Of a stretch of DNA of 64,000 bases, positions 13,949 through 63,653 are shown one piece after another; the first letter of the stretch is position 1, and every line of letters begins with the position of its first letter. Location of the stretch: positions 96,817,298 to 96,881,297 of the forward strand of contig CM041783.1 in NCBI GenBank assembly GCA_023374045.1, written 5' to 3'. The stretch comes from Limonium bicolor (Eukaryota; Streptophyta; Magnoliopsida; Caryophyllales; Plumbaginaceae). The notes below the pieces were generated by a model. It saw only the letters and a list, made by a program, of their open reading frames with translations. It was not told the origin of the DNA and searched no databases. A program made the position numbers and the translations under genes.

Positions 13949-14639
13949 TGTAACACCCCCGAATAACAATCAATAATTAAACGACGAGCCTAAGTTAGCA
14001 GGAGATGTCTACGCAGCGGTTTCTAACTTCATCCGGGTGTCACAGATGCCAACCACCCATGTGGTTGACAGACCACAATACCAACTCCAAGTTACGGTCT
14101 GAATGACTGGAAGTCAAACTTAACGAAATCCATATACAATATAAGGACAACTCAAGTACCGAGCATCTACAGTTTAGTTAATAATTTAAACAACTTAGCC
14201 CATACATAAGGAAGCATACTACTTAAAGTCTTGCCATGTGGACTACCCCCATGGTAGTCACTTGCCTACTCTCCGCCATTGTCCAACACAAGACCTGAAA
14301 AAAATTGGGTGTAAAGGACTCAGCAAACTACGCTGAGTATGAACGTGTGAAGCCCGCATGTTACCGGGCCACACGACTACTTGGTCGAATATTATTAAGT
14401 CAATTTTACATGCCATGTTAAAGCAGTAAAGCACACATTTGTACATCATAATATCATACACACTCATCGGTAGCATAGCAATATCAGCAAGCAACCAAGC
14501 ACAACTTGCAAGTAGCATAGCAATGTCAATAAGCAACCAAGCACAAAAGCTGCTAATGTAGCAACAACAATCAAGTACATGATACAACGTGTGCGCAGGT
14601 ATATTATACCGTCGATCCTCACTAGGGGATCATTCAAGA

Positions 14640-35064: not shown

Positions 35065-35689
35065 TGAAATACCCCAAACCTTATTATGTTTTTTAAACAC
35101 CTAAATATGGTATATCAAGACTAAAAAGAGTCTTAGAAGCATTAGTAAACAAATCTAAACGATAGAAAACACAAAATGTGCTTTAAGGTCAATAAGAGCC
35201 AAAATGTGCTCTAAGCTTGGGATAAGCTTGGTTAAGACCTAATGAACTTACCAAGACGTTATTTATATACTAATGAACATATTAAACCAATTACCAATGA
35301 AAACCAAGCTTGAAAACAAGTTAAAACACAAAATGTGCTTTAAGGAGTCTTAAAGCACATTTTTGAAAAAATTGTCTTGTAAATGAGTTTTGAATGGCTA
35401 AATGTCCATCATTACTCTTTAATTAACATGTGTACTATATAGTATCACATTTGGAAGTCTATATCAATGGGAAATCAAAAATTTTACTTCTATGTGCCTT
35501 GTTTTATGAATAGTAACTTTTATAAGCTAGTTTGTAACATATGTTGTTATAAGTAATTAAATGAGTCATCAAAGACTAAAATACCCTTGTTATAATAATA
35601 GGGGCCGGTTTTCTTAAGTGTGGTGACTCACCACTCTCTTGTTAACATGTTAAGTAAATAAAGATGACTAATGGTTACTATTTGCTTTA

Positions 35690-35760
35690 AAGGCATAAAT
35701 ATCTTCAAAAGGCAAAACTTATCTCATTCTCTTCTTTCCCTCCTCATTTCACACGGTTCC
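35690..35760 (+). promoter_or_regulatory. Candidate LTR promoter region, element A
   Basis: CATAAATATCTTC is the only TATA-like block here kept at the same place in A, B (AACAAATATCTTC, about 50514-50526) and C (CTAAATATCTAA). It is followed by a CT-rich leader and CACACGGTTCC. Inferred from conservation only. Confidence 0.3.
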
Positions 35761-37348
35761 ATGCTCTCTTCAACCTCTCTTCTTCATTCTCTTCTACGGT
35801 TTGCAATAGTACACACCACCATCTCCATCTTTGACCTCTTGTAAAGTCTAGCTCACTTAACCAAACCAAAAACAAACACCACCATTCTCTTCCTCTCATC
35901 AAGCTCTTCATTCCTATCTTCTCAAAACTTCAAGAGTCCCATTTCGGTGCCATGGAGTTCCACCATTGAAGGAGCTTGAGCTTACATTTCTACATATTAT
36001 TACTCTCCTTTGCTGCTAGGTAAGGAATCTCAAAGAAAAATCATGTTTCCTCCATGTTTTTACCTTGACCGAAAATGCCCATTAATGGTGCTCTTTGAGT
36101 GACTTTGTTCTAGCTTCATTCCAACCTTTCAAGGACTAGGTGGAGTCCTCTCTTGATAGATATCCAAACTCTCTTCAAGATCTGAGGTAAAACAATTATC
36201 TTAATGCTTTTGAAACAATGTACAATCTAGGGTTTACAATGAGATGAAGCTTAAAGCTTGAATACTCATTATGCTGTTTGTATAATGTTTAGAAGTTGAC
36301 AAACAATCTAAAGCCTTGCCGATTTTAAACAAGGAAACAAGAAAGAAGTTTGTGAGGAAAAAGAGGTAAATGTGCTAACCTAAGGTGGTTTAAAGTCTTA
36401 GGAGAAATGAGCTTGTATTGCTTATGAAAATGATCTAAGGAGCCAATGGGAAGTGACTTAGAAGAATGCTCTTAAGGGCTTAGTAAAAGGCATATGTGTT
36501 GTTGAGTGTATTTACAGGTCAAAGGCAAATATATTGTGGAAATTCAGTGTTTACGATTTATGCATCTTAAGGGCCTAAGAGCCATGTTATTTAAGGGCCT
36601 AAGTGCCATGCAATTTAAATTATGCACTATTTGGTGATGAAGTGCTAATTGAGTGAAGTTTCGTGTATATGAATGTGTTTGATGGATTGTTAGTGTTCTT
36701 GATTGTAAAATGGTGAAAATAATGTGTTTTGGTTTAGTAATGTTCTAGGAGAACCTATGTCAAAATTTAGGTAATAAACAAGAAGTTCTAAGGGTTTAAA
36801 ATGAGTTTGATAAGTTAAGAAATATTTAGAATGGTTAAGTGCTTTCCTAGTGAAAGAAACATGCATTAAGGTGTTTAAAGATGTAAAAAGGGCTTAGGTG
36901 ATGTTCTAGAGGATTTAGAATGCAAAAGAATGCTTTGGGACATTTCAAGATTCTTGATGAGATTGTATTTTGGACTTGTGTATCGTTGGTGAAAAAGGGA
37001 TGAAGTGGATTGTTACATGAGAAGCTATAAACTTGTAAAGATGTTTAAGGAATTGTTTAGGAAGAAAAGATGCTTGAGAGATGATGTTGTTGTGATGAGG
37101 GAGTATTTTGGCATAAGAGATCATCTTAGGTATGAAACACCGCTTTGAGACCAAGGAGAAAACATTGTAAGTGTTAGGAATTTTGGGAAGAAATGAGTAA
37201 AGGTTTAAGGAATTAGAAAATGAGTTTTATGAGTGTTTAAGGATGTCTTAAGTTGTATTTGAAGTGCCCAAATGAGGTTAGGGTGTACTAGGATATATGA
37301 GGTGAAGTTTGAAGTTAAATGGGCAATGGAAAATAAGGGTCTGGAGCA

Positions 37349-37664
37349 GACCGAACTTGCGACCAAACTTGCAAGTTCGGTCGAGCCCAGTTTACCCTGC
37401 GAGAATTGGCTTCTGGAATGGACCGACCTTGGGGACCGGACTTGCAAGGTCGGTCGGGCTTGTATTTGGTGTACGAATTAAGTTTCTGGAATCGACCGAA
37501 CATGGGACCGGACCTGGCAAGTTCGGTCGGGCTTAAAAATTCCCACGGGGAAACTCTCGGGAATTGACCGACCTTGTGGACCAAACTTGCAAGTCCGGTC
37601 GGGGTAGGATTTTCAAACGGAAATGTGTTCTGGAATGGACCAAACTTGGGTAAGTTCGGTCGGA
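37349..37664. repeat. Hairpin array, element A 5' LTR
   Basis: Five units at 70-72 bp spacing. Arms: GACCGAACTTG / CAAGTTCGGTC (unit 1), GACCGACCTTG / CAAGGTCGGTC (unit 2), then variants. Units 1 and 2 differ in both arms in a paired way. Confidence 0.92.
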
Positions 37665-38615
37665 CCAAAACTTGTAAAAAAAAAATAGAAAAGAATGTGA
37701 CTTGTGTAGTTAACCCTAGGGGGTATAATGAAGGTAACCTAGGGTAAGTTGGGCATTAAAAACATGTCATATAATCATGTTTAACACTTAATAAAATTTG
37801 AAGTTAAGTAAATAATTAACCGACATTCTTAAACATGTATAGGAGTGACCTACGGAGGAAATCAATCGAAGCAAGGACCAAGGTATGGTTTTCTTGCAGT
37901 CTGTTGCCTACCGGTTACCCGGATGGTGTTGTATGTTTTTCTGTGTGTTTATGACGTTATAAGACTTAAACATGTAATGAGTTTACAGTTGTTCATATTA
38001 TCGTGATGTTATGATGTGACTCATTTCCCTTGTGTGTGTCTAACGTCACTTACAACCTGTTGTGTATTGGTTGTTCAGTTCCACCGTGAACTTCTAACAA
38101 GTGCTAACTGGGAAGTGAGGAATCCGGTTGTCCGGTCATGCATGTAAGTTAATAGTAGATATCTGAATCAGATTCGACTCTTATGTTGTTAAGATTGTTC
38201 TCCTTAATTTGGCGTTCGATCTCCCGCTAGCTTCCTCCAAAGCTTACCTATTCTGACTTATGATCGGTTTAGTGGGAACATGTGTTTGTGTGGTGTGTTT
38301 GGGTCACTATATCCGAACCATCTGTGACCTAAGTTACTCGTTCGAATAACAGAATGGTAATGAGTGTGTGTAACGAGCTTAACATGAGGGTGAACCATTC
38401 TCTAGGCTCTTATGTTGTTTAACCTTCTTGGTTTGTTATTGTGGAAAGAGTATCCACTGTGTATGTGATGTTGTGCTATGCACTATTGATGCTATGCCAC
38501 ATATTATGTTATGTTATGATATGTTTAAAATGAATGCCATGTTATCATGACAATTAGTTGCGCGTATCCCGGTAGCCGATGGGCTGCGCGTTAACCATAC
38601 CAGCCAAGGGTTGCT

Positions 38616-38642
38616 GACCCCCTCGGGGGCTCCATATTTTTA
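38616..38642 (+). other. GC hairpin followed by T-run near LTR 3' end
   Basis: GACCCCCTCGGGGGCTC then ATATTTTTAC and TGCAGG. The same arrangement is at 53160, 63238 and 33543. C has a compensated variant on the minus strand. Confidence 0.6.
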
Positions 38643-39031
38643 CTGCAGGATGAGGATTGAGGAAGCAGAGTGGCTGTAGGATCTAGGCTGCAGTTGTACT
38701 TTGGTTTATTTTGGATGTTGAGCCTGGGATGCGCCTGTGCTCCTGTGGGATTATATTTTGATCCCGTTGAAACTACTATGGCGGTATATTGACAGTTTAC
38801 AGTGTAGGAATGTATTTAAATACTCGGTATTGTATATGATGTATTAATGGTTTTAGTTCTATGCTCGGGAGTCTGCTCATCAGACCGGTACACTTGTATT
38901 TATTCTGCCTTGTTAACCACGTGGGTGGTTGACGGCGTTGTAGCACCGAAGCGTTTAGTTATTGTTTAGTCGTTTATTTCCGCTGCGATTTCAATTAGTT
39001 GTGAAGTAAGATGTAGGGGTGTTACAAAAAG

Positions 39032-39043: not shown

Positions 39044-39919
39044 GAAGTATCGCTCTGATGACTAGAATACCGAGCTTAGGAATATACCGAGTTAGGAAAC
39101 CTAACTACAGTTACCTGAGTGAGCAGTTACGGAAAGGTTAACCACTAACCAAGTGAGGAGATACCTTATTGTCGGGAAGATGATACAACCGTTGGAACCG
39201 ATAAGTGTGTAAGCATAATGCTAATAATGTTCGTGTGAATTCAGATGTCAAGTAGACCGAGAGGTAGAGGCCGTGGACACGGTACTGGAGATACAGATGA
39301 CCAGGGCGAGAATACTACGGCTCAGGTTATGGCCGAAGCTGTAGCGGCCGCCGTAGCCCAAATGGTTCCACAACTAGTAGCTACAATTTAGCAGGGGCAA
39401 CAGCCCGAAGTTCAACCACCACCGCCACCGCCACGAGAGACCAACTGGGTCAAGGCATTGGCAGATCTTAGACCCTCGTCATTTCATGGGGAGACCGACC
39501 CACGTAAGCTGGAGGCGTACATATCCGAGTTGGAGACCGCCTACGAGACCTTGGATGTGCCTGCTGGGGCCAAGGTCCGTCTTGCCGCTTACTACCTGAA
39601 GGGTTCGACACAGAGTTGGTGGAAGCTTGTGAGAGAGGACCGGATGGCGAATCCTCAGTTTGGATGGAGGGAGTACACGGCTCTACTGCGAGCTAAATAC
39701 TACCATGTGCACGTTCAAGAGGCCAAGCGCCTGGAGCTGGATAGTTTGAGGCAGGGGGACAAGGTGTCGGTTGATGAGTACTACACTGCATTCACCGGCC
39801 TTATCCACTTGTTACCAGACCTGGGATACTCGAACTGGGTGCTGGTAAACTGTTTCTACAACAGTCTCAGCCACCGTCTTCGCTATGGGATGGGGCCAGC
39901 TGAATATACTACCTTGCAA

Positions 39920-40023
39920 GTAATTTGAATGGAGTGTGATGTGAATAAGTGTAAACCATAAGTGAGTATTAGTGTGAGTTTGCGAGTATGTATTGCGGAG
40001 CATGACTGACGTCCTAAATTCAG
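39920..40023 (+). other. Gag intron 1, element A
   Basis: GTAATT...AATTCAG, 104 bp, phase 0, with a branch-like CTGAC about 15 bases before the acceptor. Contains stops. Confidence 0.75.
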
Positions 40024-40285
40024 GAGTGCTATCATGCCGCTGCTAAGGTTGAGATCACCGTCCGTCTGAGGGACGAGGAGAATGCGCACAAGCGCAAGGC
40101 CACGAGCGAAGGCCAGAGTCCGCAGGGGTACGGGGGAGGAAAGAAGAAGAAGAAACCTTATCCCTAGCCCCAGAAGAGTCAGCACCAGGGTGACAAGGGC
40201 CAAGCCCAGACCACCACAGCTGAGGAGCCATTAAAGCTCACATATGCTTATGCGGCGAAACCCCTACGCTCTTACCCACCTAAGG

Positions 40286-40368
40286 GTAATTATCTAATCA
40301 TGTGTGACAAGTTGAAGTGTGTGTTGTTAAGTTATGATATAAGTATTGATTGTGTATTGTGATAGCAG
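40286..40368 (+). other. Gag intron 2, element A
   Basis: GTAATTATC...GATAGCAG, 83 bp, phase 1. Same length as in B. Confidence 0.75.
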
Positions 40369-40710
40369 CTAGCACGGGTTCTGGACCGGAGCGCCACTAT
40401 TACTGTAAGTGGTGTAACGGAGACCACCCCAGCAAGGACTACAAGGGAAACGACGTACAGTGTCGTTACTGCGAGAAGTGGGGTCACCGTGACTACGAGT
40501 GTTACCGGAACCCTAACTGCAGAGTCAACAAGCCCAAGGGGCAGTGGAAGGGTAAGGCCACAGCAACTATTGATGGCCCGAAGACGGCTAACCAGCCACC
40601 CACAGATCAGAGGCACACTGATTCCCAGAAGGGGAAGGGGTCGGGACCTGGCAAGGCCGCCCTGAATGTGGTGGACCGGTCTGAGGCGCCAGGACCCTCT
40701 TCTAGACCAG

Positions 40711-40857
40711 GTACCGCCGACACTGTTGAATGAAATAAGTGATTGCATACCGCATTTCATGCATGTGTGTACTAGTGAGTCCAAGTGTATTATCATGTGA
40801 GTAAAGAGTTAAAGTATAGTGTGAAAGTCACCTAATTAGATAATTCTAAACTTAAAG
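40711..40857 (+). other. Intron 3 before the AlkB exon, element A
   Basis: GTACCG...CTTAAAG, 147 bp, phase 1. The acceptor is AAAG here and TTAG in B. Confidence 0.65.
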
Positions 40858-41597
40858 GAACCTTCAATATATGTTATCCAATCCCACCCACACCAAACCC
40901 TGAAGAAACCACCATCAACATCACCGACTTTCCAATGGAGCAATGTCAGGTTATCCAGCCAGGTATGATACTCTTAAATGGATACCTGACACCGGAAGCA
41001 CAAGTCCATATCATCAGACGATGCAATGAACTTGGAGCAAAACCTAGAGGTTTCTACACACCTGAATACCCGAGCGGATCAAGAATGAGATTGAAGATGA
41101 TGTGCATGGGTAAGGACTGGAATCCTTACACCAAGACATATCAAGAAGTGCGAGCGGAAGACGGAGCAAATGTACCAATGATACCTGAGGAGTTCCTTGC
41201 GGTCGTGAACCACGCCGTGGGAATTGCTCAGCAAGTTGAAACGGATTCAATTCCAAGTGTTAAAGCAGATTTGTGTATTGTGAACTTCTACCATAAGGGT
41301 GGATGATTAGGTTTACACCAAGATAAGGACGAGTCACCCGAGTCTCAAAGTAAGGGAGTACCCGTGGTGTCTTGGTCCATTGGCGATACCGCAGTATTTA
41401 TATATGGCGAGCAGAAGCGTGCTGATCTCGCAAAGAAGTTAGTTCTAAAGTCAGGAGATGTGTTAGTCATGGGTGGGTAGTCAAGGATGCTATATCATGG
41501 CATCAGAAAGATCAAACTGAATACCGCACCGTCGACAGTGATCAATGCCACACACATGAAACCCGGACGTTTGAATTTGACCTTCAGACAGTTTTAA
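40858..41597 (+). pseudogene. AlkB-type dioxygenase exon of element A (two stops)
   Basis: The same 740-base exon as in element B. It encodes the full AlkB fold region, from EQCQVIQPGMILLNGYL through the iron site LGLHQDKDES to RLNLTFRQF and a TAA at 41595-41597. Two in-frame stops interrupt it: TGA at 41304-41306, where B has CGA (Arg), four codons before the HxD motif, and TAG at 41478-41480, where B has CAA (Gln), before the distal His. An AATAAA at 41711-41716, about 115 bases after the stop, could serve as a polyadenylation signal for a Gag-AlkB transcript. Identity with the B exon is high with scattered substitutions. Confidence 0.92.
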
Positions 41598-47707: not shown

Positions 47708-49421
47708 TGATAAGTGCAAAACATATAGACTTATTAAGGTTTAATCACCTTATAATTTGCAGCATTTTTAGTAATGTTTTTCACTTATCTTGGGTTTTTC
47801 CTGTATTTATGTTGTTATATTAACTGATGTATTATATGTGTTAAAATGTAGGAAAAATGACAAACAAACACATATATTATATAAAGGATTAAACAAGGTC
47901 GCATGAAGCAGGGATGTGTCCGCCCGGACAACACTCATGCAACCGCCTGTTGTTTAGGCGGACAACACATACGTGCATGTGGAACCGCCTCTACTACCGC
48001 CTGAAATGGAGGCGGACGTGTGGCCATCAACCGAACAGGGGCAACCGCCTGATTGTTGGGCGGTCTGGGAGGCGGTACCATGGACATGCAACCGCATGCA
48101 ATGCAGGCGGACAGTTAGGCGGACAAGGAACAGAATTAAACAGGAGACAACCGCATGGCATTTGGGCGGTAGTAAAGGCGGACGGCAAGAGAGGTCCGCA
48201 TGCTTTAGAGGCGGACATAGAGGCGGACAGCAGCAGTTAGTCAGTCGCACCAGTTTTCTTCTTCGCGTCGACTTCGTCCGTCGACTTGTCTTCGCCGACT
48301 TCTGCAACTCGTCCACTCGTCCACTGTCTGCAATTATCCATCTACTCTGCACATTCTGTCCCCTGCAATAAATGATCAATCAGTCTGCAAATCTTATCCA
48401 GCTTCTTCCACCGCCTCAATCCATTCCTCAAAACCTCACGCGTCTGTCTATCTTCTCTGCTGTTTCTTCCTTTCCCTATATAAATACACATCCTCCACCA
48501 TCAATCCAGAAAACAATCGACCACCCATACAATCCATCACCGTACCACTTCACCACACATCACACGTTCATCTCATTTCTCTCCTCCCGCCTTCTCCATT
48601 TTATTTATTTTACAGTCCACCATATCCACCTCTAGCCCTACGTATACAAAATAGCAGAGCGAGCTGGAGTGATTACAGATGATTTCTATTACTCTTGTTT
48701 CTGTTTATCTATTTAATATGTTAGGCTAGAATATTTATACTCGGGGAATGGTTATTATGTGTTTGTATTAATTGTGCAATATTTTTACTGGTTTATTTAA
48801 ATACAGTTTGTTACGTTTTAAAGGTTATCTCGCACCTTTTTAATAAATGTCATGAGTTTATTAAATTGCTTTCCTAAGTCTATTTTGATCAGACCGGTGA
48901 TAAATAGATAGGTTAATTAAGACGTAAAACTGGAGGAAACTTGTTATGATTTAATAAGTTAGTATTCAGTTGCAAATGTAATTCCTAAATACTCCTCTGC
49001 CGTTTACAGGCATTTTGCTTGAACCTTGATTAGAACCTTGCATTTTCAGGTAAACGAGTTCTTTTGAGTCTATGACTTAGACCTTAAGAAAATAACAGGA
49101 ACCTTGCCAAATTATTAAACCAGTAGAGATAGCTTAATTATGCAGATTATAATAACCTGACCCAGAGTTCCGTTTTATTTACCTGTTAACTTAGTTTATT
49201 TTATTTTTTTTATTTATATTACAAGTCAATTAATCCCCCCTCTTGTGACACGCTTAGGTACTATATATGTATATTAGTCCCACGGTTCGACATCCGGTCG
49301 CTTACATTTTCACTATACTACTACGACCGGGATTTGTTTGCAGCCCGACGTTTATTTTGAGTTTTTAATTTCTTTTCTTTTATTTTACACCAGTTTAATC
49401 ACTCACGATATAACGTCTGCA
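47708..49421. mobile_element. Unrelated solo LTR, 1.7 kb
   Basis: TGATAAGTGC...GTCTGCA with perfect GTTAG duplications (47703-47707 and 49422-49426). A TATA box (CTATATAAATACAC, about 48476-48489) suggests plus orientation. The ORFs of 108-141 codons around 47914-48379 overlap on both strands and come from GC-rich repeats. The superfamily is not determined. Confidence 0.88.
47917..48236. repeat. CCGCCT / AGGCGG inverted-repeat cluster
   Basis: About six units of the form AACCGCCTG...AGGCGGACA (or AACCGCATG...AGGCGG), roughly 50-60 bp apart, upstream of the TATA box in the 47708 solo LTR. Confidence 0.8.
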
Positions 49422-49426
49422 GTTAG

Positions 49427-49896
49427 GGTGTACTAGGATATATGAGGTGAAGTTTGGAGTTAAATGGGCAATGGAAAATAAGGGTCTGGAGCAGACCAAA
49501 CTTGGACCGAACTTGCAAGTTCGGTCGAGCCCAGTTTACCCTACGAGAATTGGCTTCTGGAATGGACCGACCTTGGGGACCGGACTTGCAAGGTCGGTCG
49601 GGCTTGTATTTGGTGTACGAATTAAGTTTCTGGAATCGACCGAACATGGGACCGGACCTGGCAAGTTCGGTCGGGCTTAAAAATTCCCACGGGGAAACTC
49701 TCGGGAATGGACCGACCTTGTGGACCGAACTTGCAAGTCCGGTCGGGGTAGGATTTTCAAACGGAAATGTGTTCTGGAATGGACCGAACTTGGGTAAGTT
49801 CGGTCGGTAAGTTCGGTCGGACCAAAACTTGTAAAAAAAAAAACAGAAAAGAATGTGACTTGTGTAGTTAACCCTAGGGGGTATAATGAAGGTAAC
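49427..49896 (+). repeat. Element A 3' LTR, part 2
   Basis: Continues from 47707 after the solo LTR. It includes the hairpin array (49494-49820), with one extra TAAGTTCGGTCGG copy compared with the 5' LTR. It is cut at GTAAC by element B. Confidence 0.92.
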
Positions 49897-52800
49897 TGAA
49901 ATACCCCAAACCTAGGTATGTTGTTTAAACATTAAAACATAATTTATTAAGACAAGAAAATGTCTTAGAAACATTAGTAAACAATTTAAACCATAAAGAA
50001 TACAATTAAACACCTTAAGGTCAATAAAGGCTCTAAGCTTGGAATAAGCTTGGGTAAGACCTAATGAACTTACCAAGACCTTATTTATATATTAATGGAC
50101 ATATTAAATCAATTACCCAAGAAAACCATGTTTGAAAACAAGTTAAAACACAAAATGTGCTTTAAGAAGTCTTAAAGCACATTTTTGAAAAATTGTCTTG
50201 TAAATGAGTTTTGAGTGGCTAAATGTCCATCATTACTCCTAAATATATATGTGTACTATATAATATCACGTTTGGGTGGCTATATCAATAGGAAATCAAA
50301 AATTTCACTTCTATGTGCCTTGTTTTTATGAATAGTGATTTTAATAAGCTATTTTGTAACATATGTTATCTTAAGTAATTAAATTGACAAATAAAGACTA
50401 AAATACCCTTATGTAATAAAGGGGGCCGGTTTCTTAAGTGTGGTGACTCACCACTCACTTGTTAACATGTTAAATAAATAAGATGACTAGTTTAGTTACT
50501 ATTTACTTTTTAAGAACAAATATCTTCTTAAAGCAAATTCTATCTTCATTCTCATTTCCCTCCTCCATTTCACACGGTTCCAAACTCCATCTCCTTCCTT
50601 CTTGCTGCTCTCTCACAGTAATATTCACCACCACCATTAAAACTCTAGCTTTGACCCCTTGTAAAATCTAGCTCACTTGTCCAAATAAAAAACAAACACC
50701 ACCAATCTCTTCCTCTCATCAAGCTCTTCATTTCTATCTTCTCAAAACTTCAAGAGCCCCATTTCGGTGCCATGGAGTTCCACCATTGAAGGAGCTTGAG
50801 CTTGTCTTTCTACATATTATTGATCTCTTTTGCTTCTAGGTAAGGAATCTCAAAGAAAAATCAAGTTTCCTTCATGTTTTTGCCTTGACCGAAAATGTAC
50901 ATTGATGGAGCTCTTTGTGTGACTTTGTTCTAGCTTCATTCCAACCTTTCATGGACTAGGTGGAGTCCTCTCTTGTTAGATATTCAAACTCTCTTCAAAG
51001 ATCAAGGTAAAACAACTACATTAATGTTTTTGAAACAATGTAAAATTAGGGTTTACAATGAGATGAAGCTTAAAGCTTGAATACTCATTATGATGTTTGT
51101 ATATTGTTTAGAACTTGACAAGGAATCAAATACCTTACCGGTTTTATAAGGAAACAAGAAAGAGGTTGTTTGGAAAAGAGGTAAATATACTAACCTAATG
51201 TTGTTTAATGCCTTAGGAGAAATGAGCTTACAATGCTTGTTAAAACTACCTAAAGAGCAAATGGTGAATGACTTAGTAAAGTATTCTCAAGAGACTAGTA
51301 AAAGAACATATGTCTTGTTGTATGTATTTGCAGGTCAAAGGCATGTATATTGTGGAAATTCAGTGTTTATGATTTAAGCACTTTAAGGGCCTAAGAGCCA
51401 TGCATTTTAAGGGCCTAAGTGCCATGCAATTTAAATTATGCATTATATTGTAATGTAGTGTGATTTGAGTGAAGTTTTTATACGAGAGTGTTCTTGGTGA
51501 TTTTAGGAGTTCTTGTGTGATTAATGGAGAGAACAATGTGTTTTGGTTTAGTAATGTTCTAGGAGAATCCATGTCAAAATTTAGGAAATATCCAAGGAGT
51601 TCTAGGTGTTAATGTAAGGCTTGGTGAACTAGAGGTGATAGAAATCGACTAAGTGTTTTACAAGAGATGAAATAATGTCTTAAGTTGTTCTAGGTAACAA
51701 AAGGACTTAGACATCAACTAGGGTTTAGGTTGGTAAGAAATAATGCTTAGGAGGTGATGTTAAGATGAGGAGAAAACATTTTGGGATAGTAGTTATCATA
51801 GGTAAGAAACACCATTTAGAAACCTAGTATAAAATGTTATAAGTGTTAAGGAATTTTACAAGGAAATGAGTGAATGTTGAGGAGTTTAAATGAGTTAGAA
51901 CTTGAGTTGAATGGAGGTTATTTGAGGTAATTAGTGTGCCAAAAGGTGTTACAACACATTGGGTGACTTAAGGGAAAATTTGGAACAATTTGGAGAATTC
52001 CTAGGAAGTTCCTGCAGTAGACCGACCCGGGGGACCGACCCTGGCAGGGTCGGTCGGACTGTAAATGGCAGGTTGAAAATGGTTCTGTTAGAGACCGACC
52101 CAGGGGACCGACCCTGTCTGGGTCGGTCGGATAGGAAAGAAAGACGGTAAATGTCTCTGTAAGAGACCGACCCAAGGGTAGGGTCGGTCGGTAGGGTCGG
52201 TCGGACCTAAACTTGTAAAAAAAAGAAATGTGACTTTTGTAGTTAACCCTAGGGGGTATAATGAAGGTAACCTAGGGTAAGTTAGACATTTAAACATGAC
52301 ATATAATCATGAGAATACTTAGTAAGAATTGAATGTCAAGGAAGATAATTAACCGACGTTACTAAATGTGTTTAGGATTCTCTCAAGGTGGAAATGAATC
52401 GAGGCAAGGACCAAGGTATGGTTTTCTTGCAGTCTGTTGTCTACCGGTTTACACCGGCTTGGGTGTTGTTTGCTTTTCTGAGTGTTATGACCTTATAAGA
52501 CTTAAGGCATGAAAAGAGTTTACAGTTGTTATACATTATGATGTTGTAATGTTGTGACTCCTTTCCCTTGGTGTGTCTAACAAGACCTAAATATTTGCTG
52601 GTATGTGACTTAACAAAATATTGTGTGACCACTAACAAGTGCTAATCGGGGGGAGTGTGGAGTCCGGTATGTTCCGGCCACGCGTGTGAGGACGGGAGTC
52701 GATGTCATATCCGGTTCGGCTCTCTTGGTGTATGTATGGGTTGTATTCCAATTTGGTCTCAACCTTCCCTTAGCTTATCCAAAGCTAGTTTACTGACTCA

Positions 52801-53572
52801 CGTCGGGCCACAGGGGCATACAAATGTTGTTTCGGTGTGCTTGGGATTACTATATCCGACACACCTTGGGTTTAAGTTAACCGTTCGATATAACTGGACG
52901 GTAACGAGGTTGGTAACGAGCTTAGCATGAGATTGGCAATAATCTCTAGGCTCACTATGTATACTAACTATGGTGGAAGGTTCCTTGTGTGAACCGATTT
53001 TATGGTGTTATGTATTGTTGTGGTGCTATGCAATTTCCCTTGCTATGCTATGGTATATATATGTTGGATGTTTAAAATGAATGCCATGTTATCATGACAA
53101 TTGGTTGCGCGTATCCCGGTAGCCGATGGGCTACGCGTTAACCATACCAGCAAAGGTTGCTGACCCCCTCGGGGGCTCCATATTTTTACTGCAGGATGAG
53201 GATCGAAGAAGCGGAGTGGCTCTAGATCCTAGGTCGTTGATATACTTTTGGTTATTTTGGTAGTTGAGCCCGGGATGCACCTGTGCTCCCGTGATGTTTA
53301 TTTTGGCGCCATTTGTTAAACAGTGGTGGATGTTTACAGTTGGAAGTTGTGATGTAAATTAAATACTCGGTATTGTTGGTTATATATATATGTGGATGTT
53401 AGGACCTATGCTCGGGAGTCTGATCATCAGACCGATACACTTGTATTTATTCTGCCTAGTTAACCACGTGGGTGGTTAACGGCGTTGTAACACCAAAGCG
53501 TTTAGTTATTGTTTGGTTGGTTATTTCCGCTGCGATTTCAGTAGTTGGTAGGGGCATTGTAGGGGTGTTACA
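49897..53572 (+). repeat. Element B 5' LTR
   Basis: 3676 bp, TGAAATACCCC...GGGGTGTTACA. It holds a hairpin array at 52020-52204, a GC hairpin and T-run near 53160-53187, and TTTCCGCTGCG near 53524-53534. Confidence 0.96.
52020..52204. repeat. Hairpin array, element B 5' LTR
   Basis: Three units with GACCGACCC / GGGTCGGTC arms. The second extends to GACCGACCCA / TGGGTCGGTC. The 3' LTR (62112-62283) has lost 16 bases of one unit. Confidence 0.9.
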
Positions 53573-53577
53573 AAAAG

Positions 53578-53589
53578 TGGTATCAGAGC
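53578..53589 (+). other. Primer-binding site, element B
   Basis: TGGTATCAGAGC, five bases after the LTR, identical to A. Confidence 0.95.
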
Positions 53590-54462
53590 GAAGTATCGCT
53601 CTGATGACTAGAATACCGAGCTAGAAATATACCGAGTTAGGAGACCTAACCATAGTTACCTAAGTGAACAGATTTGGAAAGGTTAACCACTAACTAAGTC
53701 TGGAATTACCTTGTTGTCGGGAAGATGCTACAATCGTTGGACCGATAAATGTGCAAGCACAATGCTAATGAAATGTTCATATGAATTCAGAAGTCAGGTA
53801 GACCACGAGGTAGAGGCCACGGGCGCGGTACTGGAGGTACGGGTGACCAGGGCGATGATACTACGGCACAGACCATGGCTGAGGCAGTAGCAGCCGCCGT
53901 AGCCCAGATGGTACCCCAGATGGTTGCTGCATTACAGCAAGGGCAACAGCCCGGAGTTCAGCCACCGCCACCGCCACGAGAGACCAATTGGGTCAAGGCG
54001 TTGGCTGATCTGAGACCGCCGTCGTTCAATGGGGAGACCGACCCTCGTAAGCTGGAGGCGTATATCTCTGAGCTGGAGACCGCCTACGAGACCTTGGTTG
54101 TACCTGCTGAAGCTAAGGTCCGTCTTGCCGCTTACTACTTGAAGGGATCGGCACAGAGTTGGTGGAAGTTGGTGAGAGAGGACAGGATAGCTGATCCTGA
54201 GTTTGGTTGGAGGGAGTACACGGCTCTACTGTGAGCCAAGTATTACCCTGTACATGTGCAGGAGGCCAAGCGCCTCGAGCTGGATAGTCTGAGGCAGGGG
54301 GATAAGATGTCGGTTGATGACTACTACACCGCATTCACCGGCCTTATCCACCTGTTACCAGACCTTGGGTACTCGAACCGGGTGTTGGTGAACCGGTTCT
54401 ACAATGGTCTTAGCCACCGTCTCCGCTACGGGATGCGGCCAACTGAGTACACTACCTTGCAG

Positions 54463-54565
54463 GTAATTGAAATACCGTGTTGTGATTTAGTTTATACCGT
54501 GAGTGAATGTTAATGTGAGTTGGTGAGTTTTGTTTTGCGGGGCATGACTGACATCCTAAATTCAG
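54463..54565 (+). other. Gag intron 1, element B
   Basis: CAG/GTAATT...AATTCAG/GAG, 103 bp, phase 0, with CTGAC and CCTAAA branch-like motifs before the acceptor. Confidence 0.8.
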
Positions 54566-54824
54566 GAGTGCTATCATGCCGCTGCTAAGGTTGAGATTAC
54601 CGTCCGACTGAGGGACGAGGAGAATGCGCACAAGCGCAAGGCCACGAACGAGGGCCAGAGTCAGCAAGGGTATGGGGGAGGAAAGAAGAAGAAACACTAC
54701 CCTCAGCCCCAGAAGAGTCAGTACCAGGGTGACAAGGGCCAAGCCCAGACCACTACAGCTGAGGAGCCACTGAAGCTCACATATGCGTATGCGGCGAAGC
54801 CACTACGCTCCTACCCGCCTAAGG

Positions 54825-54907
54825 GTAAATATCTAATCATGTGTATCTAGTTGAGGTGTATGTTGTTAAGATGTGAAGTGAGTATTGATTGTGTGTTGTG
54901 ATAGCAG
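54825..54907 (+). other. Gag intron 2, element B
   Basis: AAGG/GTAAATATC...GATAGCAG, 83 bp, phase 1. Confidence 0.8.
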
Positions 54908-55249
54908 CTAGCACGGGCACTGGTCCGGAGCGCCACTTTTACTGTAAGTGGTGCAACGGAGACCACCCCGGCAAAGACTGCAAGGGAAATGACGTGTGGT
55001 GTCGTTATTGCCAGAAGATGGGGCACCGCGAGTTTGAGTGTTGGACGAACCCCAACAGCAGGAACTATAAGCCAAAGGGGCAGTGGAAGGGTAATACTAC
55101 CGCGACCACCGAAAGCCCGAAGGTGATCATCTAGCAGTCTTCTGACAAGAAGTACACTGAATCCCAGAAGGGGAAGGGTACGGGGTCCGGCAAGGCCGCC
55201 CTGAATGTGGTGGACCGGTCTGAGGCACCAGGATCCTCTTCGAGACCAG

Positions 55250-55398
55250 GTACCGCCTAAACTATTAAATGAAAAAGTAATTGCTTACCGCATTTCATGC
55301 ATGAGTGTTGTATTAGTGAGTCTAATGTACGACCACCTAAGTGATGAGTTAAAGAATAATGTGAGAGACACCAAAATTAGACAATGTGGAAAACTTAG
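55250..55398 (+). other. Intron 3 before the AlkB exon, element B
   Basis: CCAG/GTACCG...AACTTAG/GAACC, 149 bp, phase 1. The same donor could instead join the acceptor at 56314/56315 and skip AlkB. Confidence 0.7.
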
Positions 55399-56138
55399 GA
55401 ACCTTCAATATCTGCTATCCAATCCCGCCCACACCAAACCCTGAAGAGACCACCATCAGCATCACCGAATTCCCACTGGAGCAATGTCAGGTTATCCAAC
55501 CAGGTATGATACTCTTAAATGGATACCTGACACCGGAAGCACAAATCCACATCATCAGGCGTTGCAACGAACTTGGAGCAGCACCAGGAGGTTTCTACAC
55601 ACCCGAATACCCGAGCGGTTCGAAGATGAAGCTGAAGATGATGTGCATGGGTAGGGACTGGAATCCCTACACCAAGTCATATCAGGATGTGCGAGCTGAA
55701 GACGGAGCAACTGTACCAGGCATACCTGAGGAGTTCCTTGCGGTCGTTAACCACGCCGTGGGAATTGCTCAGCAAGTTGAATCGGAACCGATTCCGAACG
55801 TGGAAGCAGACTTGTGTATTGTGAACTTCTACCAAAAATGTGGACGATTAGGATTACACCAAGATAAGGACGAGTCACCCGAGTCTCTAAGTAAGGGAGT
55901 ACCCGTGGTGTCTTGGTCCATTGGTGATACCGCTGTGTTTATGTACGGCGAGCAGAAGCGTGGTGATCTCGCGAAGAAGCTAGTGTTGAAGTCAGGTGAT
56001 GTATTAATCATGGGAGGACAATTAAGGATGTTATACCACGGTATCAAGAAGATTAAATTGAATACCGCACCATCGACAGTGGTAAATGCCACACATCTGA
56101 AACCCGGACGTTTGAATTTGACTTTCAGGCAGTTTTGA
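55399..56138 (+). CDS. AlkB-type Fe(II)/2-oxoglutarate dioxygenase exon of element B (open)
   Basis: AlkB enzymes oxidise N-linked alkyl groups on nucleic-acid bases using Fe(II), O2 and 2-oxoglutarate. The exon encodes about 246 residues and ends in TGA (56136-56138). Counting from an in-frame ATG at 55386, the iron ligands are His158 and Asp160 (LGLHQDKDE, with NFY upstream at 147-149) and His218 (YHGI); the 2-oxoglutarate arginines are Arg242 and Arg248 (RxxxxxR in RLNLTFR). SIGDTAVFMYG and SGDVLIMGG are the expected strands. The length fits a whole catalytic domain. Resemblance is closest to plant ALKBH1-like proteins from memory; the substrate is unknown. It lies between the Gag zinc knuckles and the protease. 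No start codon sits in a good context, so it is probably translated as a Gag fusion after splicing; the gag part of B has stops. Confidence 0.93.
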
Positions 56139-56314
56139 GCCTTGTGTAATCATGTAATGTATTAAGCCAGTTGTTTGATAAGGGAGCTATATATAGCCAT
56201 GTCTACAATGTAACCAACTTATGGTGTAAAGACTGTGTTAATGGATAAAGGGATGTGTGTTGGAGTGTATCAATGTGTTACTACCGTGTACTTATGAGTT
56301 TGCCAATGAATTAG
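56139..56314 (+). other. Spacer between AlkB stop and protease exon, element B
   Basis: 176 bp, AT-rich, with no domain. It ends in TGAATTAG/GCTGTG, a possible splice acceptor. A has AATAAA at the corresponding place; B reads GGATAAAG. Confidence 0.6.
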
Positions 56315-59300
56315 GCTGTGCACTCGGAACGGGAGGTATACTGAGTGTCTGCAATAAGGCAGAAGCCGACAAGAGCGGCACAATCCTCACCGGTAAATTT
56401 CCAGTGAATGGCGTGGATGCATCGATCTTGTTCGACTCTGGAGCCTCACATACATTCATTTCGCTATCATTTGCGAAGAGGCTGGGGTTAGACGGTGAAG
56501 AGATGCCTGACTTCGTGGTCACTCTCCCGTCGAAAGAGCGGATCAGGTGTACCCGCTACTACCGAGATGCTGTTGTTCGAATCAAGGATGAGGAGTTTCC
56601 GATCGACTTGATAGAGTTCGACGGACTAGGTTTTGATGTGATTGTCGGGATGAACTGGTTGGAGCGGTACAAGGGTAGAATCCTATGTGCCGAGCATTGA
56701 CTGCTTCTTCGGAGTCCATCTGGGGTTATTATATCATACCGCCAGAGGCCCAGGGAGCCTTCGACACAGATCATCACCGCCATGGCCATGTATCGTGAGA
56801 TACGACGAGGGAATGATGTATGCCTCTGCTATGTCCAGGACATAGAGAGAGACCCTGAGTTTAGCCCAGATGTGCCGGTAGTGTCGGAGTTTCCTGATGT
56901 ATTTCCTAAGGAACTGCCGGGCATGCCGCCAGCACGAGAGGTTGAGTTTGAGATTGACTTAGTTCCGGGCACCGGACCCATTGCGAAGGCACCTTATCGT
57001 ATGGCTCCAGCAGAGATGACAGAGCTCAAGGAGCAGCTGAGAGACCTACTCGACAAGGGCTTTATCCGCCCTAGTGTTTCACCATGGGGAGCGCCGGTCC
57101 TCTTCGTGAAGAAGAAGGACGGTAGCCTCCGCCTGTGTATTGATTATCGGGAGCTGAATGCTGTTACGGTGAAGAACCGTTACCCTTTACCACGCATCGA
57201 CGATCTATTTGATCAGCTGAGGGGAGCATCAGTATTCTCCAAGATAGACCTACGTTCCGGATACCACCAGATTGCCATCCGTGACAGTGATATCGAAAAG
57301 ACAGCATTCAGGACTAGGTATGGGCATTATGAGTTCACAGTTATGCCGTTTGGCTTATCAAATGCACCAGCAAAGTTCATGGAATTAATGAACCGTTTGT
57401 TCCAAGATCAGTTGGAAAAATCAGTGGTAGTCTTCATCGATGACATACTTGTGTATTCGAAATCGAGAGGTGAGCATGAAAGCCACCTGAGAGATGTGTT
57501 GCAAACATTGAGGAAGAATCAGCTGTATGCTAAATTTTCTAAGTGTGAGTTTTGGTTGAACCAAGTATCCTTTCTTGGTCATGTGATTTCTGAGGCCGGG
57601 ATCGCTGTTGATCCGGCAAAGATAGATGCAGTGCGCACCTGGCCTAGGCCGAAGACAGTTACCGATATCAGGAGCTTCCTCGGTCTGCAGGTATTATAGG
57701 AGGTTTGTTAAGGACTTCTCCAGTGTCTCGAAGCCGATGACTTCCTTGATGAAGAAGGATGCTCCATTCGAGTGGACAGTCGACTGTGAGAGTTCTTTTC
57801 AGAGGCTCAAGGATGCTCTGACATCTGCACCAGTCCTGACTATACCAGACGGTCCAGATGGTTTTGAGGTCTATTGCGACGCATCAGGCAGGGGTATGGG
57901 TTGTGTGTTGATGCAACACGGGAAGGTCGTGGCTTACGCCTCCCGACAGCTGAAGAAGCATGAAGAGAACTACCCTACCCACGACTTAGAATTGGGTGCC
58001 ATTGTCTTCGCATTGAAGATATGGACATCATTTGTATGGGGTAAGCGTGACAATCTATTCCGACCACAAGAGTTTGAAATACTTGTTCACTCAGAAAGAG
58101 TTGAACATGAGGCAAAGAAGGTGGGTCGAGTTCTTAAATGATTATGACATCAATTTACAGTAATAAGGAGGGTAAGGCGAATGTGGTAGCTGACGCATTG
58201 AGTCGCCGAGCACACTCTCTCCATTCGCTAGTCTCTCATACTAGCTTGGTTGAAGAGGTGCGGAGTGCTCAGATGACGGATCAGTATATGGTGGAGATTA
58301 GACAGAAGCTTATTGATGGCACATTCGAGGGTCAGAAGTACGACTTCAGACTCCACGATGATGACCTGATTAGGCTCAATGGCAGATTATGTATACCGAG
58401 GAGTAGCGCTGAGCTGAAGGAGCGCATATTGAGTGAATCCCATTGTTCTACGACTTCGATTCACCCCGGAGCTTCAAAGATGTATAAGGGTATGAAACGT
58501 TATTTTTGGTGGGCTGGAATGAAAAAGGATGTAAATGATATGTGTTGAGGTGTCTCACTTGTCAGAAGGTCAAGTTTGAGCACCGACGGCCTGGTGGTAT
58601 GGTGCAGCCAATGCCAGTGCCTGAGTGGAAGTTCCATGACATATCTATGGACTTCGTGGTAGGGCTTCCGCCTACAAGGGGAGGTCTGAATATGATTTGG
58701 GTTGTGGTAGACCGACTGACCAAGGTGGCTCGATTCATACCGATGAAGGACACCTGGAAAGTGGCTAAGCTTGCAGAGCTCTTCGACAGAGAGATTGTAA
58801 GACATCATGGGGTTCCGAAAACGATTGTATCTGACAGAGATACCAGATTCTTATCGAGGTATTGGAGATCCACACGAGAGGCACTGGGTACTGAACTGAA
58901 ATTGAGCACAGCGTTTCACCCACAGACAGATGGTCAGAGTGAGCGCACCATCCAGACACTTGAGGATATGTTACGTGCATGTGCACTTGACTTTCAGACC
59001 AGCTGGATTGATAAGTTACATCTGATCGAGTTTAGTTACAACAACAGTTACCATGCTTCGATCAAGATGTCTCCCTTCCAGGCATTGTACGGTAGACCAT
59101 GCCGCACGCCTTTGCTGGGATGAGTCGAGTGAGACGGTCATTATAGGACCAGAGTATCTGGAACAGGTTCAGGCAGAAGTTCGCCAGATCCGGGCTAACA
59201 TGAGAGCAGCTCAGGATAGACAGAAGTCGTACGCTGATGTGTGCAGACGTGACCTGGAGTTCGCCGTAGGCGATCAGGTATTTCTTAGGGTATCCCCCAT

Positions 59301-59687
59301 GAAGGGAGTATTTCGTTTTGGCCAGAAGGGCAAGTTGAGCCCGAAATTGTGGGTCCTTATGTTGTGACGGAGCGGATCGGCCCGGTAGCTTATAGACTTG
59401 ATTTACCCGCCGAGCTGGGCAAGGTACATGATGTATTTCATGTGTCTCAGTTGAAGAAGTATATGTCTCATCCGTCTCATGTGCTTCAGCCTGAAAGGCT
59501 AACCTTAGAGCCGACCATGCGATCAGTGGAGACTCCCGTACAGATTCTGGATACTAAGACTCGAGACACTCGTCATAAGTCCGTGAGACTGGTGAAGGTC
59601 CTCTGGTCTAACCAAGACATTGAGGAGGCCACTTGGGAGCTGGAAGATAAGATGAAGGCGAAGCACCCGTCATTGTTTGCTTCTTAG
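56315..59687 (+). pseudogene. pol: Pol of element B: protease-RT-RNaseH-integrase-chromodomain
   Basis: Protease DSGA is at 56434-56445. A TGA at 56698-56700 (CGA in A) separates it from the RT. The RT frame 56782-57699 is intact, with FIDD at about 57433-57444. Frameshifts relative to A lie near 57687, 58025-58040, 58158, 58530, 59112 and 59347. RNase H ([22 protein letters not shown]) spans about 57870-58200. Integrase has the HHCC finger from about 58437, catalytic Asp (MDF), Asp (VSDRD) and Glu (SERT) at DX35E spacing. The chromodomain (VLWSNQDIEEATWE) ends at 59687. Every domain is recognisable, but no complete Pol can be read. Confidence 0.95.
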
Positions 59688-59947
59688 TGTTTATATGTAT
59701 AGGGTACGGGGCGTACCCCTTTTAAGGGGGGTAGAGCCGTTTCGGTTGTGGATGTGTTCGACATGTATTGTATACATTGTCTATGTTATGTTATAGACCG
59801 TTGTGTCTGAATGGTATTATGTGGTCTGGACCTTGAGTCCGTTGTGGTGTAAGTATGATGGTAATGTTGGTAATGATGTTTTTGGAAGTATTATGTTATA
59901 AGATTTTTCCCCGTGTTCTAATATTAAGATATGTGGGAAGTGTGAAC

Positions 59948-59979
59948 TTTGGGGACAAAGTTCTTTTAAGGGGGGTAGA
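59948..59979 (+). other. Hairpin and polypurine tract, element B
   Basis: GAACTTTG-GGGA-CAAAGTTC stem, then TTTTAAGGGGGGTAGA, one base before the 3' LTR. Confidence 0.9.
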
Positions 59980-59980
59980 T

Positions 59981-62900
59981 TGAAATACCCCAAACCTAGG
60001 TATGTTGTTTAAACATTAAAACATAATTTATTAAGACAAGAAAATGTCTTAGAAACATTAGTAAACAATTTAAACCATAAAGAATACAATTAAACACCTT
60101 AATCAATAAAGGCCAAAATGTGCTCTAAGCTTGGAATAAGCTTGGGTAAGACCTAATGAACTTACCAAGACCTTATTTATATATTAATGACATATTAAAT
60201 CAATTACCAAAGAAAACCAAGCTTGAAAACAAGTTAAAACACAAAATGTGCTTTAAGAAGTCTTAAAGCACATTTTTGAAAAATTGTCTTGTAAATGAGT
60301 TTTGAGTGGCTAAATGTCCATCATTACTCTTAAATAATATGTGTACTATATAATATCACATTTGGGTGGCTATATCAATAAGAAATCAAAAATTTCACTT
60401 CTATGTGCCTTGTTTTTATGAATAGTGATTTTAATAAGCTATTTTGTAACATATGTTATCTTAAGTAATTAAATTGACAAATAAAGACTAAAATACCCTT
60501 TTGTAATAAAGGGGGCCGGTTTCTTAAGTGTGGTGACTCACCACTCACTTGTTAACATGTTAAATAAATAAGATGACTAGTTTAGTTACTATTTACTTTT
60601 TAAGAACAAATATCTTCTTAAAGCAAATTCTATCTTCATTCTCATTTCCCTCCTCCATTTCACACGGTTCCAAACTCCATCTCCTTCCTTCTTGCTGCTC
60701 TCTCACGGTAATATTCACCACCACCATTAAAACTCTAGCTTTGACCCCTTGTAAAATCTAGCTCACTTGTCCAAATCAAAAACAAACACCACCAATCTCT
60801 TCCTCTCATCAAGCTCTTCATTTCTATCTTCTCAAAACTTCAAGAGCCCCATTTCGGTGCCATGGAGTTCCACCATTGAAGGAGCTTGAGCTTGTCTTTC
60901 TACATATTATTGATCTCCTTTGCTTCTAGGTAAGGAATCTCAAAGAAAAATCAAGTTTCCTTCATGTTTTTGCCTTGACCGAAAATGTACATTGATGGAG
61001 CTCTTTGTGTGACTTTGTTCTAGCTTCATTCCAACCTTTCATGGACTAGGTGGAGTCCTCTCTTGTTAGATATTCAAACTCTCTTCAAAGATCAAGGTAA
61101 AACAACTACATTAATGTTTTTGAAACAATGTAAAATTAGGGTTTACAATGAGATGAAGCTTAAAGCTTGAATACTCATTATGATGTTTGTATATTGTTTA
61201 GAACTTGACAAGGAATCAAATACCTTACCGGTTTTATAAGGAAACAAGAAAGAGGTTGTTTGGAAAAGAGGTAAATATACTAACCTAATGTTGTTTAATG
61301 CCTTAGGAGAAATGAGCTTACAATGCTTGTTAAAACTACCTAAAGAGCAAATGGTGAATGACTTAGTAAAGTATTCTCAAGAGACTAGTAAAAGAACATA
61401 TGTCTTGTTGTATGTATTTGCAGGTCAAAGGCATATATATTGTGGAAATTCAGTGTTTATGATTTAAGCACTTTAAGGGCCTAAGAGCCATGCATTTTAA
61501 GGGCCTAAGTGCCATGCATTTTAAATTATGCATTATATTGTAATGTAGTGTGATTTGAGTGAAGTTTTTATACGAGAGTGTTCTTCGTGATTTTAGGAGT
61601 TCTTGTGTGATTAATGGAGAGAACAATGTGTTTTGGTTTAGTAATGTTCTAGGAGAATCCATGTCAAAATTTAGGAAATATCCAAGGAGTTCTAGGTGTT
61701 AATGTAAGGCTTGGTGAACTAGAGGTGTTAGAAATCGACTAAGTGTTTTACAAGAGATGAAATAATGTCTTAAGTTGTTCTAGGTAACAAAAGGACTTAG
61801 ACATCAACTAGGGTTTAGGTTGGTAAGAAATAATGCTTAGGAGGTGATGTTATGATGAGGAGAAAACATTTTGGGATAGTAGTTATCATAGGTAAGAAAC
61901 ACCATTTAGAAACCTAGTATAAAATGTTATAAGTGTTAAGGAATTTTACAAGGAAATGAGTGAATGTTGAGGAGTTTAAAAATGAGTTAGAACTTGAGTT
62001 GAATGGAGGTTATTTGAGGTAATTAGTGTGCCACAAGGTGTTACAACACATTGGGTGACTTAAGGGAAAATTTGGAACAATTTGGAGAATTCCTAGGAAG
62101 TTCCTGCAGTAGACCGACCCGGGGGACCGACCCTGGCAGGGTCGGTCGGACTGTAAATGGCAGGTTGAAAATGGTTCTGTTAGAGACCGACCCTGTCTGG
62201 GTCGGTCGGATGGGAAAGAAAGACGGTAAATGTCTCTGTAAGAGACCGACCCGAGGGTAGGGTCGGTCGGTAGGGTTGGTCGGACCTAAACTTGTAAAAA
62301 AAAAAGTGACTTATGTAGTTAACCCTAGGGGGTATAATGAAGGTAACCTAGGGTAAGTTAGACATTTAAACATGACATATAATCATGAGAATACTTAGTA
62401 AGAATTGAATGTCAAGGAAGATAATTAACCGACGTTACTAAATGTGTTTAGGATTCTCTCAAGGTGGAAACGAATCGAGGCAAGGACCAAGGTATAGTTT
62501 TCTTGCAGTCTGTTGTCTACCGGTTTACACCGGCTTGGGTGTTGTTTGCTTTTCTGAGTGTTATGACCTTATAAGACTTAAGGCATGAAAAGAGTTTATA
62601 GTTGTTATACATTATGATGTTGTAATGTTGTGACTCCTTTCCCTTGGTGTGTCTAACAAGACCTAAATATTTGCTGGTATGTGACTTAACAAAATATTGT
62701 GTGACCACAAACAAGTGCTAATCGGGGGGAGTGAGGAGTCCGGTATGTTCCGGCCACGCGTGTGAGGACGGGAGTCGATGTCATATCTAGTTTGGCTCTC
62801 TTGGTGTATGTATGGGTTGTATTCCAATTTGGTCTCAACCTTCCCTTAGCTTATCCAAAGCTAGTTTACTGACTCACGTCGGGCCACAGGGGCATACAAA

Positions 62901-63648
62901 TGTTGTTTCGGTGTGCTTGGGATTACTATATCCGACACACCTTGGGTTTAAGTTAACCGTTCGATATAACTGGACGGTAACGAGGTTGGTAACGAGCTTA
63001 GCATGAGATTGGCAATAATCTCTAGGCTCACTATGTATACTAACTATGGTGGAAGGTTCCTTGTGTGAACCGATTTTATGGTGTTATGTATTGTTGTGGT
63101 GCTATGCAATTTCCCTTGCTATGCTATGGTATATATATGTTGGATGTTTAAAATGAATGCCATGTTATCATGACAATTGGTTGCGCGTATCCCGGTAGCC
63201 GATGGGCTGCGCGTTAACCATACCAGCAAAGGTTGCTGACCCCCTGGGGGGCTCCATATTTTTACTGCAGGATGAGGATCGAAGAAGCGGAGTGGCTCTA
63301 GATCCTAGGTCGTTGATATACTTTTGGCTATTTTGGTAGTTGAGCCCGGGATGCGCCTGTGCTCCCGTGGCGTTTATTTTGGCGCCGTTTGTTAAACAGT
63401 GGTGGATGTTTACAGTTGGAAGTTGTGATGTAAATTAAATACTCGGTATTGTTGGTTATATATATATGTGGATGTTAGGACCTATGCTCGGGAGTCTGAT
63501 CATTAGACCGATACACTTGTATTTATTCTGCCTAGTTAACCACGTGGGTGGTTAACGGCGTTGTAACACCAAAGCGTTTAGTTATTGTTTGGTTGGTTAT
63601 TTCCGCTGCGATTTCAGTAGTTGGTAGGGGCGTTGTAGGGGTGTTACA
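59981..63648 (+). repeat. Element B 3' LTR
   Basis: 3668 bp, near-identical to 49897-53572. Visible differences include small indels near 60100 and the shortened hairpin array at 62112-62283. Confidence 0.96.
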
Positions 63649-63653
63649 GTAAC

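Follow-up and report, generated by a model that had tools for sequence, protein, structure and literature searches.

A Ty3/gypsy retrotransposon of the chromovirus type carries a captured AlkB domain between gag and protease, in two diverged copies (elements A and B) within the window, that is, the whole stretch of 64,000 nucleotides analysed. Judged by sequence and predicted fold, the domain is of the ALKBH1 type, on the side of rice OsALKBH1 and Escherichia coli AlkB. The broadest reading, which we offer tentatively and with doubt slightly outweighing belief, is that a chromovirus has put a captured enzyme of the ALKBH1 type to use as an alternative 3' exon of gag; the Gag-AlkB protein made by splicing would carry a demethylase into the virus-like particle and act there on packaged RNA or single-stranded cDNA. 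The element would then be an independent, architecturally different parallel to elements of orchids, and demethylase capture would be recurrent in plant retrotransposons. The features of the two elements are given below, with strand and basis in brackets.

35065..39026 (+): 5' LTR of element A, approximate ends (LTR comparison)
40836..41597 (+): AlkB copy of element A, with stops at 41304 and 41478 and a final TAA (sequence comparison with B)
49892..49896 (no strand): left GTAAC, 5-bp target duplication (sequence)
49897..63648 (+): element B, Ty3/gypsy LTR retrotransposon of 13,752 bp, inserted into the 3' LTR of A (LTR pair, unoccupied site)
49897..53572 (+): 5' LTR of B, 3,676 bp (LTR comparison)
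53578..53589 (+): TGGTATCAGAGC, likely primer binding site just inside the 5' LTR of B, which we take to be of the initiator Met tRNA type (sequence)
53791..54462 (+): gag exon 1 (capsid), with a stop at 54232 (A/B comparison; capsid profiles on the A copy)
54463..54565 (+): putative intron 1, GT-AG, 103 bp (splice sites)
54566..54824 (+): gag exon 2 (dN/dS 0.057, splice sites)
54825..54907 (+): putative intron 2, GT-AG, 83 bp (splice sites)
54908..55249 (+): gag exon 3 (zinc knuckles), with a stop at 55132 and a phase-1 donor CCAG/GTACC at 55249/55250 (sequence, dN/dS)
55250..55380 (+): putative intron 3, acceptor AATTAG/A; an alternative acceptor ends at 55398 (splice sites)
55381..56138 (+): AlkB exon, ending at the native C-terminus in a TGA stop of its own; frame open back to 55365 (frame, profile, dN/dS, fold)
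56139..56314 (+): AT-rich spacer separating AlkB from protease, with acceptor AATTAG/GC at its end (sequence)
56315..59687 (+): protease, reverse transcriptase, RNase H, integrase and a C-terminal chromodomain-like region, with a stop at 56698 and frame changes (frames, Pfam)
59981..63648 (+): 3' LTR of B, 3,668 bp (LTR comparison)
63649..63653 (no strand): right GTAAC, 5-bp target duplication (sequence)

The original prediction had placed the AlkB domain between gag zinc knuckles and protease, inside an LTR element with a 5-bp target duplication, and the LTR pair and the flanking GTAAC confirm this. The two LTRs of B are 98.96% identical over 3,656 ungapped positions (K2P 0.0105). Those of A differ by a K2P of 0.0141 over the 2,217 bp compared; its 3' LTR starts at 45492, extends beyond the end of the window and is split by B and by another insertion. 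The unoccupied insertion site of B can be read at 37730 in the 5' LTR of A, and the nesting of B in the 3' LTR of A makes the insertion of A the older. By Pfam, B contains protease, reverse transcriptase, integrase core and the SH3/integrase C-terminal region, and A contains these together with gag and RNase H. The order gag, protease, reverse transcriptase, RNase H and integrase, between LTRs with a 5-bp duplication, is that of a Ty3/gypsy chromovirus; the chromodomain profile PF00385 scores 21.8 and 21.7 bits after integrase in the two copies, below its cut-off of 25.1.

Both elements are damaged. In B, stop codons interrupt gag at 54232 and 55132 and the protease-reverse transcriptase region at 56698, and AAG stands in place of the ATG with which gag starts in A. 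Given these gag stops and the missing start codon, the B copy would be unable to make Gag-AlkB itself, though its AlkB frame is open; with gag stops in both copies, neither can now make the product. Other repeats occur in the window. The second insertion in the 3' LTR of A (47708-49421, 1,714 bp, TG...CA ends, 5-bp duplication GTTAG) probably represents a solo LTR from a different family. A pair of direct repeats, each about 3.8 kb long (3062-6832 and 10156-13950), 98.7% identical and on the strand opposite to the B LTRs, is related to those LTRs at 75-92% over parts; between them there is no frame of at least 150 codons except ones extending into the repeats, and the pair is perhaps a non-autonomous relative.

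The AlkB frame of B comprises 257 codons and a stop (55365-56138). The Pfam profile PF13532 (2OG-FeII_Oxy_2) aligns over its full length with residues 47-255 (E=2.8e-46; 158.6 bits, cut-off 31.2), which bears out the claim of a full AlkB-type domain and provides the profile match suggested as its check. Numbered from 55365, the metal ligands are H165, D167 and H225 and the 2OG arginines R249 and R255, and N154 and Y156 are also present. The original prediction had pointed to the same residues, at 158/160, 218 and 242-248 as counted from base 55386; only the numbers change, to 165/167, 225 and 249/255. Among 57 aligned rows, H165, D167, H225, N154 and Y156 are invariant, and R249 and R255 are at least 90% conserved. 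The profile, the HxD...H ligands and the RxxxxxR arginines of an ALKBH1-type domain are all present. The NCBIfam equivalog for bacterial AlkB reaches 106.9 bits, against a cut-off of 267; since the Arabidopsis homologue P0263 also falls far below it (92.9 bits), this failure excludes the bacterial equivalog only.

In a sequence search of solved structures, the best relative of the B domain was rice OsALKBH1 (5xeg, 5xoi; E=1.1e-69), followed by E. coli AlkB (about 1e-22) and mammalian ALKBH1 (about 1e-10); no chain of ALKBH2, ALKBH3, ALKBH5 or FTO appeared up to E=10. An AlphaFold2 model built on a 57-row alignment (pLDDT 91.0, pTM 0.89) has the double-stranded beta-helix fold of AlkB and OsALKBH1. 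The top Foldseek match of this predicted model was again OsALKBH1 (TM 0.90-0.91, 48% identity), with E. coli AlkB chains next among the matches listed (target-normalised TM 0.82-0.89, 28-30% identity) and no ALKBH5 chain among the 50 fold matches listed. Among solved structures the nearest relatives are thus OsALKBH1 and E. coli AlkB, and no sign was found there of the ALKBH5/9/10 branch to which the orchid AlkB belongs. The analogy originally drawn with Onsen and ALKBH9B-dependent m6A does not carry over directly, because the sequence matches and the listed fold matches lie on the OsALKBH1/E. coli AlkB side and contain no ALKBH5 chain. A set of acidobacterial AlkB proteins (L001-L011) reached as much as 45% identity with the plant-type domain, against 28-30% for E. 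coli AlkB.

Among the best 120 matches of each protein search, the sequences closest to the captured domain were P0001-P0004 (59-71% identity), ahead of named angiosperm ALKBH1C/D-like proteins, mostly 44-53% identical. P0241 of Artemisia annua contains a repeated AlkB segment, of which the first copy seems shortened; it ranks high in one of the two protein searches only because the domain is repeated. The window copies and P0001-P0004 formed one clade with an SH-aLRT of 100 in a 122-row tree, and the same six rows grouped at 97/84 in an 83-row tree that included 13 bacterial rows. When this tree was rooted with the bacterial proteins, the clade fell outside the 64 other plant-type rows, with long branches flagged; the order of grasses and orchids was odd, long-branch warnings were raised, and no age or donor of the capture is claimed from it.

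P0001-P0004 may have come either from element copies or from the host genes of an unsampled plant group. P0003 is truncated and without nearly invariant residues, as decayed repeats are, which favours element copies; among the 120 pol matches listed, none exceeded 60% identity at 90% or more query coverage, and this lack of a close pol relative speaks against them. PF13532 was not seen among the precomputed domains of the 120 listed pol matches, a search in which candidate length was limited, and a search for relatives in viral contigs gave no match.

The same domain lies in the same place in element A (40836-41597), as originally predicted, with the difference that the A copy has two in-frame stops. 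The two AlkB proteins are 86.6% identical and end at the same codon, TAA in A and TGA in B, which is also where full-length plant homologues end. Across 246 codons, AlkB dN/dS between A and B is 0.135 (bootstrap 0.08-0.21), with 55 of the 87 changes at third positions. The corresponding values are 0.119, 0.057 and 0.270 for gag exons 1, 2 and 3, 0.258 for protease, 0.046 for reverse transcriptase, 0.070 and 0.064 for two integrase pieces and 0.153 for the C-terminal piece. This low AlkB value, within the range of the element's own genes, indicates that AlkB was kept under purifying selection; the test compares one pair of copies and so shows ancestral constraint, saying nothing of the present function of either copy. 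The LTR divergences of A and B are much smaller than their coding divergence, so that most of the latter arose while the lineage was active. Two diverged copies, an identical position and a low dN/dS uphold the view that the family retained the domain as a heritable part.

The sequence upstream of AlkB appears to be a gag split by two introns. The putative gag introns (103-104 bp and 83 bp) are AT-rich and GT-AG in both copies, and GT-AG ends are found at all proposed introns of A and B. The intronless gag-pol proteins P0220, P0152 and P0137 align with the flanking exons 1 and 3, and by eye the exon 1/exon 2 junction TTLQ/ECYHAA resembles the unbroken TLQEAYVSAA of P0220. A chromovirus-type gag with two putative, conserved GT-AG introns (53791-55249 in B, 39245-40710 in A) is unusual in itself. 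Exon GC in B is 0.476-0.575 against 0.337-0.379 in the spacers. Nucleotide identity between A and B does not set exons apart from spacers: it is 0.793 in gag exon 3 and 0.80-0.85 in four spacers, with slightly different limits. Divergence in the spacers is lower than at synonymous positions in gag and AlkB, for which we have no full explanation.

The zinc-knuckle donor is in phase 1, and the AlkB and protease acceptors both leave two bases, in phase with it. Three in-phase AG sites before AlkB are common to A and B. The acceptor ending at 40839 (A) or 55380 (B) is TAG in both copies, and the second is atypical in A. The start first assigned to the exon, 55399, does follow one of these three shared candidates; the acceptor ending at 55380 looks better. 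A duplication of the gag-protease junction around AlkB had been suggested by a part of P0137 that aligned to both sides. It was rejected: 356 of 1,000 shuffles were as good in A and 36 of 1,000 in B, the top-scoring alignments failed to bring the expected residues together, and the resemblance of introns 3 and 4 was matched by shuffles in 96 of 500 and 252 of 500, which also argues against it.

The explanation that we favour, and hold to be on balance slightly probable as a whole, combines capture of an ALKBH1C/D-type gene, selection and alternative splicing to Gag-AlkB or Gag-Pol. A chromovirus lineage would have taken up the 3' coding portion of a plant gene of the ALKBH1C/D type, native stop included, placed it between gag and protease and maintained it by selection. 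The 5' gene of the element would then be divided into three gag exons followed by AlkB and pol. Joining of the zinc-knuckle donor to the AlkB acceptor would yield a Gag-AlkB ending at AlkB's own stop, and joining of the same donor to the protease acceptor would yield Gag-Pol. Because AlkB keeps its stop at the native C-terminus, a Gag-AlkB-Pol fusion is unlikely, and the balance tips towards an either/or choice of splice. Gag-AlkB would tether an Fe(II)/2OG demethylase to the nucleocapsid, on packaged RNA and single-stranded cDNA, where AlkB would remove N-methyl adducts or marks, adenine methyl among them. The splicing to Gag-AlkB, its packaging and its substrate are what we infer from the exon layout and the type of enzyme; given the fold and the conserved active site, demethylation of the element's own RNA or cDNA is plausible.

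A host gene piece might instead have been trapped once and copied as a passenger without function. Plant retroelements commonly transduplicate host genes, the AlkB copy of A is broken, and there are two AlkB copies only within the 64,000-nt window; the AlkB changes, over a divergence of about 12%, are nevertheless far from neutral, and their dN/dS is similar to that of gag and protease. The passenger explanation is disfavoured, and we consider it very improbable. The exon might also serve mainly to set the Gag/Gag-Pol ratio as an alternative terminator, with catalysis secondary. EVD (PMC8892269) and BARE (PMC3735527) are reported, in the passages cited, to produce short Gag messages by splicing, and inclusion of AlkB would likewise end Gag before Pol. 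A terminator needs no intact active site, however, whereas B has retained every one of H, D, H, R, R, N and Y, which leaves this role quite unlikely as the main one.

Less easily set aside, though still unlikely, is that AlkB is an additional gene kept by the element and translated on its own from Met48, on a subgenomic or unspliced RNA, as has been proposed for ORF2 of the orchid elements. The catalytic domain starts at residue 47 and adjoins Met48, the gene models of P0001 and P0003 begin at the equivalent Met, and the orchid AlkB is a separate ORF (PMC9289625). Nevertheless, the sequence upstream of Met48 is conserved between A and B and partly shared with P0002, and the conserved acceptors lie before Met48.

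The splicing to Gag-AlkB or Gag-Pol that we prefer has partial counterparts. Spliced short-Gag RNAs are made by EVD, a Ty1/copia element (PMC8892269), and by BARE (PMC3735527), and Ogre has a gag-pol intron. In all three, splicing is proposed to set Gag against Gag-Pol; in contrast to the present element, no enzyme exon is added according to the passages cited.

The nearest known system is that of the Gypsy_Pa_2799 elements of Phalaenopsis, with a 2-ODD/AlkB ORF2. AlkB-bearing Gypsy elements of two Phalaenopsis species are described in the cited passages as Ogre/Tat by reverse transcriptase, with an ALKBH5-clade AlkB in ORF2 that is active on m6A in vitro; the authors, citing work on Onsen and ALKBH9B, propose m6A removal from element RNA (PMC9289625). 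Both cases are plant Ty3/gypsy elements in which a captured, catalytically complete AlkB was retained by the family. They differ in that the orchid element has 25.5 kb, 6.4-kb LTRs and an ALKBH5/9/10-type domain at the C-terminus of ORF2 (PMC9289625), whereas the present one is of chromovirus type, with 13.75 kb, 3.7-kb LTRs and an ALKBH1-type domain between gag and protease; the orchid layout with its separate ORF2 is not found here. With lineage, AlkB subfamily and position all different, the present capture looks independent of the orchid case.

The orchid screen of 121 angiosperm genomes, which extended 5 kb on each side of the reverse transcriptase, is reported in the passages cited to have found the AlkB domain in no other plant (PMC9289625). 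As such an extension would show the present layout, the present family lies outside the 121-genome set or has too few copies for the filters. In the part consulted, a review cites only the orchid case of an AlkB-bearing retroelement (PMC12786077), and no AlkB-bearing chromovirus was found among the matches listed from the literature covered, which left out most subscription papers and bioRxiv. The novelty is narrower than first supposed, an AlkB-bearing Gypsy lineage of orchids being already published, albeit outside the chromoviruses (PMC9289625).

Rice OsALKBH1 and ALKBH1C/D share with the captured domain its profile, catalytic residues, predicted fold and the C-terminal GRLNLTFRQ(F/Y); unlike plant ALKBH1C/D proteins, it lacks most of the host N-terminal region and clusters with P0001-P0004, outside the 64 other rows. 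AlkB domains are also carried by Alphaflexi-, Betaflexi- and Closteroviridae, according to the passages cited (PMC9289625); these too are mobile plant genomes with an AlkB, but they are RNA viruses.

AlkB capture by Gypsy elements itself is already known; new here are its presence in a chromovirus-type element and the apparent exon layout combined with the native AlkB stop. The single orchid capture could be an accident. A second capture that differs in Gypsy lineage, AlkB subfamily and position suggests that plant retrotransposons are limited by methyl marks or methyl damage on their nucleic acid often enough for a countermeasure to pay, and the exon layout offers a testable way in which such an element could balance Gag and Gag-Pol and at the same time supply the particle with an enzyme.
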